From contig JAIRYY010000014.1 in the NCBI GenBank assembly GCA_031267485.1, positions 1-16,936 on the forward strand: a stretch of DNA of 16,936 nt. Reading direction: 5' to 3'. Source of the DNA: Tannerella sp. (lineage in GTDB: Bacteria; Bacteroidota; Bacteroidia; Bacteroidales; Tannerellaceae). Below the pieces are notes generated by a model. It did not search any database. It was not told where the DNA came from and worked only from the letters and a program-made list of their open reading frames with translations. The translations under genes were made by a program, and so were the position numbers. Below, in pieces: positions 3,192 through 3,350 of this stretch (its first letter is position 1; each line of letters starts with the position of its first letter).

Positions 3192-3350
3192 ATGAATACT
3201 TTCTCTCCATCTCACATCTCGAATAATTCTCATTCAAGCCTTTGCATGAGAGGGTTTGGCACGATTCTTGCAGAGAGAGAGAGAGAGAGAGAGAGAGAGA
3301 GAGAGAGAGAGAGAGAGAGAGAGAGAGAGATGAGCAGGCGTATCTATTAG
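3192..3350 (+). CDS. Small leader ORF containing the GA repeat (putative)
   Basis: An ATG at 3192 follows AGGAG (3180-3184) at good spacing, an unusually clear Shine-Dalgarno for this window. It encodes 52 residues: 27 non-repetitive residues, then Glu-Arg repeats from the dinucleotide tract, then Met-Ser-Arg-Arg-Ile-Tyr and a TAG stop at 3348-3350. The non-repetitive part is rich in Ser, Asn and His and has no recognised domain or signal peptide. It lies about 40 nt after the predicted transcript start and 256 nt before susC, so it may be a leader peptide. The tract would force translation of consecutive AGA-GAG codon pairs in any frame. Whether it is translated is unknown. A plain non-coding leader is the main alternative. 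Confidence 0.35.
   Translation: MNTFSPSHISNNSHSSLCMRGFGTILAEREREREREREREREREREMSRRIY
3272..3330 (+). repeat. 59-nt uninterrupted AG/GA dinucleotide tract
   Basis: Positions 3272-3330 alternate A and G without interruption, 29.5 dinucleotide units. This is very long for a bacterial chromosome; contingency loci with dinucleotide tracts usually have far fewer units. It lies between the predicted susC promoter and the susC start. The length in the living cell may differ from the assembled length, because such tracts are difficult to sequence and assemble. Confidence 0.98.

Follow-up and report, generated by a model that had tools for sequence, protein, structure and literature searches.

Phase variation of the surface in Bacteroidota is mostly described as a product of DNA inversion. 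The invertible promoters of Bacteroides, reportedly the subject of work by Jiang in 2019, resemble the locus analyzed here in that surface genes of this phylum vary in phase, but there a recombinase drives the inversion of DNA. In attenuation of the enterobacterial pyrBI kind, termination is prevented when a ribosome translates across the attenuator hairpin; what is sensed in that case is the rate of transcription, whereas in the system proposed here the reading frame would decide.

The nearest described system is pil1 of S. gallolyticus, for which the published account reports GCAGA repeats in a leader ORF, the repeat number setting the frame, and a stop that falls, according to that number, either before or in/after a terminator of -18.7 kcal/mol (PMC3894217, Danne et al., 2014). 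The same paper states that pil1 mutants support translation-dependent antitermination and that pil3 is similar (PMC3894217). Like pil1 and pil3, the present locus has a non-triplet unit in a leader ORF, with a unit number that sets the frame and a stop either before or beyond a premature terminator, which here is a predicted one. A surface structure is switched in pil1, as shown by experiment, and would be switched here, as read from the sequence. Unlike pil1, it belongs to Bacteroidota, is built on an AG or AC dinucleotide, has unrelated leaders and recurs at many loci per genome, and the genes placed under it include SusC, ECF sigma factors and a sensor protein. It is not the pil1 locus by descent, as the AG unit and SusC/SusD stand in place of GCAGA and a pilus operon; by analogy, then, the present system would work like pil1 and is not a homologue of it.

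Among simple-sequence contingency loci, AG repeats are also found in a methyltransferase of Mycoplasma mycoides (PMC3498834); repeat length alters the frame there as well, but that repeat lies in the switched gene itself and the one described here lies in a separate leader ORF. For B. thetaiotaomicron, leader-like short ORFs have been noted in long 5′ UTRs (PMC7366714). A search of the open-licence literature on phase variation and attenuation, simple repeats, termite-gut Bacteroidales and SusC leaders returned nothing on this system, which is weak evidence of novelty.

The AG tract and its leader frame

In the window (the whole stretch of 16,936 nt that was analyzed), TRF returned a perfect period-2 array of 29.5 AG copies at 3272–3330 (59 nt, 100% match, score 118), the second-best tandem array scoring 46, and a perfect dinucleotide run of 59 nt is far beyond chance. 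This single perfect array, also read directly from the letters, bore out the 29.5 uninterrupted AG units of an earlier sequence-only reading, and the placement of the tract between a consensus promoter (3114–3144) and a SusC-type gene was upheld by the promoter motif and by a match to TIGR04056. The features of the locus are as follows.

3114–3144, + strand: Bacteroidota-type promoter, TTG at 3114–3116 and TATATTTG at 3137–3144 (sequence, consensus match)
3192–3350, + strand: leader ORF as assembled (59-nt phase), MNTFSPSHISNNSHSSLCMRGFGTILA followed by Glu-Arg repeats, MSRRIY and TAG at 3348–3350 (translation)
3272–3330, + strand: (AG)29.5 tract, the length-variable element (direct sequence reading and TRF)
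3331–3333, + strand: stop TGA of the 55- or 61-nt phase, predicted OFF (frame analysis)
3372–3428, + strand: predicted intrinsic terminator, hairpin 3372–3421 and U-run 3422–3428 (scan; dG -16.1 kcal/mol)
3473–3475, + strand: stop TAA of the 57- or 63-nt phase, the long frame, predicted ON (frame analysis)
3607–6786, + strand: susC, the gene proposed as switched (TIGR04056, 779.6 bits)
6806–8869, + strand: susD-family gene (PF07980, PF14322)

Upstream of the promoter, a cytidylate-kinase-like gene ends at 3083. TAnnTTTG / TTTG is the Bacteroidota promoter consensus given in PMC7366714, and of 151 nonredundant loci, 71 have TAnnTTTG at -145 to -95 relative to the tract, where shuffles expect 4.8 and reached at most 11. 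The leader ORF opens with the ATG at 3192, so that the window holds a non-triplet repeat within a leader ORF, with the promoter upstream and susC downstream; this leader frame is common to 102 of 122 AG tracts. An AG repeat has no stop codon in any frame, and a change in its length therefore alters only the frame behind the tract. The leader ORF stops at 3333, at 3350 (tracts of 59 or 65 nt) or at 3475, two of these stops lying before and one beyond the predicted hairpin and U-run, and we predict the OFF phase for the assembled 59-nt copy and the ON phase for a tract of 57 or 63 nt.

We think it quite probable that the tract provides the length variation in a phase-variable, translation-gated transcription attenuator. 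Transcription would begin at the promoter, ribosomes would load at the ATG at 3192 and read the AG tract as Glu-Arg repeats, and slippage would alter the tract by 2-nt units, with length modulo 3 setting the frame behind it. In two phases translation would end at 3333 or 3350, ahead of the hairpin and U-run, and termination would leave the genes OFF; in the third, translation to 3475 would cover the hairpin, no terminator would form, and RNA polymerase would continue into susC and susD (ON). The sequences themselves show the anatomy of the locus, its recurrence, an open frame that is maintained and, across loci, more terminators than expected; that the tract slips in vivo, that transcription terminates and that expression changes are steps that we infer.

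Several other arrangements were considered. A contingency repeat inside the reading frame of the surface gene was ruled out, as susC has a separate ATG 276 nt past the tract and a stop intervenes in the susC frame. A promoter-spacing switch was rejected as the main idea because the tract begins 127 nt past the promoter box and lies within an ORF. A search of 3080–3620 for an invertible promoter found no long near-perfect inverted repeat pair flanking the promoter, only short imperfect inverted repeats, among them a 21-nt pair of 71% that overlaps it, and Rfam gave no match at E up to 1 for region 3000–3700.

Tract length could also matter by shifting the start of the transcript, if a sigma-54-type promoter adjoined the tract and RNA started inside it. 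The sigma-54 consensus is GG-N10-GC, which TTTGGCACGATTCTTGC at 3255–3271 fits; of 110 AG leaders, 29 end in GC, and all of these share the GG, the next C and a T at -7, and RpoN is present. However, the remaining 81 of 110 leaders lack the GC end, the open frame and terminators occur among them too, and an RNA started in the tract would lack the start codon of the leader; we regard this explanation as highly improbable.

Two small features flank the tract. A hairpin, TCTCAT...ATGAGA, was spotted by eye at 3228–3251, in the leader ORF shortly before the tract; similar pre-tract hairpins apparently occur in other leaders and could be pause hairpins. Behind the tract, GCAGGCGT was found in 35 of 121 tails and CGCGCGTA in 30 of 121, the site in the window being 3334–3343, and GCGCGTAATA is also present in the tails of genome G089.

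One open frame and the predicted terminators

Across loci, two of the post-tract frames usually stop soon and one stays open toward the next gene, in many cases running over a predicted intrinsic terminator. Of 99 nonredundant loci, 96 had a longest post-tract frame of 130 nt or more, against a mean of 31.5% and a maximum of 49.5% in 300 shuffle sets, which overstate independence, the loci being related by descent and the comparison pairs sharing members. These 99 loci have at least 260 nt downstream of the tract, an ATG leader of 15 codons and flanks that are not near-duplicates. The antisense strand, taken as a control, gave 22% overall (126 loci). Broken down by group, leader-ORF loci kept the open frame in 81/84 cases in the genus (Tannerella MAG loci included, L054 of G021 left out), 12/13 in family f20 and 8/8 in f31. 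Two observations on the open frame count against the attenuator: it was weaker outside these main clades (3/5 in f74, 7/12 in the others), and the long frame was also kept in 11 of 12 tracts that have no detectable ATG leader. A second tract type in genome G027, with its look-alikes, was left out of the open-frame, group and leader/promoter counts.

Other families show the design as well, in genomes G187 (10 of its 18 tracts examined) and G089 (10 of 11), where two frames shut within 25 nt and the third stayed open in 8/10 and 9/10 loci, respectively, compared with 3% in shuffles. At 7 of 9 loci in G187, the long frame spans a predicted terminator and stops 2–39 nt short of the next gene.

We counted as a terminator any hairpin that scored -13 kcal/mol or better and had a T-rich run behind it, between the tract and the next gene, and found one in 49 of 91 loci, against 4–13 in 8 shuffle sets. 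Of these 49 loci, 30 had a single frame running past the hairpin midpoint, 17 had two, 2 had none and 0 had all three; in shuffles, no frame passed the midpoint in 67% of cases. The phase of the repeat thus sets whether the stop lies before or beyond the terminator at 47 of the 49 loci, and the phase as assembled was a passing one at 17 and not at 32.

Some terminator counts weigh against the attenuator. The other 42 of 91 loci have no terminator at -13 kcal/mol, and at 2 of the 49 no frame gets past the hairpin. Of 18 susC upstream regions taken as a control, 6 had such a terminator, one of them an AC-tract locus (L166); with L166 excluded for its AC tract, the share among tract-less susC genes was 5/17. 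The hairpin of the window itself (z -1.67) was equalled by 14 of 200 shuffles, which is only moderate support, and a long-range fold competes with its 3′ part. We observed a 30-nt inverted repeat, 73% complementary, at 3403–3432 and 3528–3557, the 5′ arm of which overlaps the predicted terminator.

The frame could switch expression with no terminator involved, if the leader in its long phase were translationally coupled to the next gene or prevented Rho-dependent polarity, the short phases leaving the RNA untranslated. The loci that lack a strong intrinsic terminator favour this explanation, as do the G187 frames that stop so close to the next gene and the ATGA-type overlap of some long frames with the next start codon (L121, L120, L058, L073, L035, L169, L173). 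Such overlap is confined to a minority of loci, though, and the intrinsic terminators are in strong excess and situated inside the long frame. The distance in the window, where the long frame stops 131 nt upstream of the susC ATG, speaks against coupling and is also a point against the attenuator. On balance, we judge a switch of this terminator-free kind to be unlikely.

As for phase, the assembled copies were closed at 9 of 10 examined loci in G187 (L208–L216) and at 9 of 9 loci with a defined leader in G089 (L139–L148), and open-phase loci in these genomes are rarer than one in three would give.

Change in tract length, unit and codon positions

Tract lengths differ between relatives. An alignment across the tract joined flanks that were 95.7% identical and tracts of 21.5 and 28.5 units, and a second aligned pair (86.6% identity) had 24.5 and 21.5 units. 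The sequence-only reading had proposed comparing lengths in related strains, a single invariant length speaking against a switch, and lengths do differ between the relatives aligned here. Its wider claim, that the tract may be a phase switch for susCD, is favoured by the comparative anatomy, the step from length to expression being one that we infer; the leader ORF around the tract, and the translation-gated attenuation proposed for it, go beyond that reading. We strongly favour a slippage-driven switch of susC, as read from these sequences, because the leader switches frame, one frame is kept open, terminators lie in it and lengths differ between relatives.

The long frame showed no constraint at the codon level. 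Substitutions at codon positions 1, 2 and 3 numbered 273, 243 and 266 in 18 related pairs, a set that includes poor alignments such as L073/L177, and 186, 155 and 180 in the 12 pairs with at least 80% identity. Among indels in the 18 pairs, 64 of 226 were in multiples of 3, and in 9 of the 18, under half of the aligned bases lay in a common long frame. A functional peptide in the long frame was rejected on the lack of codon-position bias. The leader ahead of the tract likewise had no codon bias (64, 57 and 68 substitutions in 16 pairs), which counts against the attenuator.

The repeat unit also varies. In the window's own genome, one susC gene lacks an AG tract, and its leader ORF contains 27.5 units of AC instead, the gene ahead of that leader being read as fecR-like. 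Among 41 genomes of the genus, 17 have AC tracts and 0 have AT tracts of 12 units. L194 combines an AC tract with a leader that matches one AG leader at 75% identity over 81 nt, the mean identity to all AG leaders being 41%. We also considered L073 (AG) and L177 (AC) as one locus with its unit swapped and rejected this, the match being confined to the downstream gene; the pair shows instead related susC genes behind different leaders.

These AC tracts bear on whether the AG sequence itself is the active element and no frame is switched, the repeat serving as a binding site for a TRAP-kind RNA-binding protein, by stalling on Glu-Arg or AGA/GAG codons, or as an unstructured spacer. AG is the commoner unit, and repeat binding of the TRAP type is known from the trp leader of B. 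subtilis, where the protein binds (G/U)AG repeats (PMC4027176). But the same arrangement also occurs with AC tracts, one of which belongs to a leader from the same family, and a sequence-specific role does not predict an open frame kept after the tract. An AG- or Glu-Arg-specific function is disfavoured by the AC tracts, and we hold the whole explanation to be very unlikely. Because the open frame is kept with no codon constraint and AC replaces AG in a leader of the same family, what is kept seems to be translation itself and not the peptide.

Spread of the tracts and the genes behind them

The window's genome (G000) has 17 AG tracts of at least 9 units, with lengths of 11.5–33.5 units; none starts with G, and all 17 are preceded by C or T. 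Tracts occurred in 30 of 40 other genomes of the genus, in 0 of 19 genomes of other genera of the family, in 3 of 40 from other families and in 51 of 393 when the order was sampled more widely. Named genomes yielded 27 stretches on scanning, 24 of them in MAGs titled Tannerella sp. and the others in one Dysgonamonadaceae MAG, WY5.bin104 and OttesenSCG-928-M11; we take all of these to be insect-gut bacteria. The tract that the sequence-only reading had treated as a possible phase-variation switch is real and does not stand alone, being one of 17 in this genome and part of a multi-locus system in the lineage.

Loss of mismatch repair was rejected as the cause of the tracts, MutS being over the cut-off in 4 of 5 genomes; G000, which is 77% complete, had no MutS above the cut-off. 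It could still be argued that the tracts are functionless, as neutral microsatellites or assembly artefacts, since they were found in MAG contigs and 4 of the 17 in G000 come within 150 nt of where a contig ends (C136, C234, C245, C290), as with assembly-breaking repeats. An artefact is disfavoured because tracts also occur in G187, a single-contig genome of 4.3 Mb. Moreover, the position of the tract in the leader ORF is fixed, an open frame is maintained and susC is associated with the tract in 7 of 8 testable loci of G000. This explanation is already contradicted by these counts, and we give it next to no probability.

SusC was the next large gene at those 7 of the 8 G000 loci that have at least 1.5 kb downstream, and it lay within reach in 47 of 99 loci. 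Pfam scans of ten further downstream genes identified ECF sigma factors (L174, L113), a NusG-domain protein (L060), a regulator-propeller protein (L194), a TIG/NHL protein (L115), HU/DUF4469 proteins (L131, L055) and an S74-chaperone protein (L126), with L063 and L209 giving no match. We lean towards a regulatory layer in Bacteroidales in which many SusC proteins, other surface proteins, ECF sigma factors and sensors would each be under their own dinucleotide-repeat attenuator, mostly OFF, with each cell sampling a random subset of surface and uptake functions by slippage and not by inversion. If true, having such attenuators at a dozen or more loci in each genome would open a second, combinatorial path to diversity of the surface and of nutrient uptake, and the one proven streptococcal case would become an instance of a recurrent principle; the attenuator model predicts ON or OFF at each locus from tract length modulo 3.

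The second type of AG tract, in G027 (L098, L099, L100, L102, L105, L107, L111, L114), has a different leader (..INNARSAYAY..) and a conserved tail rich in ACAAACAAATTA.
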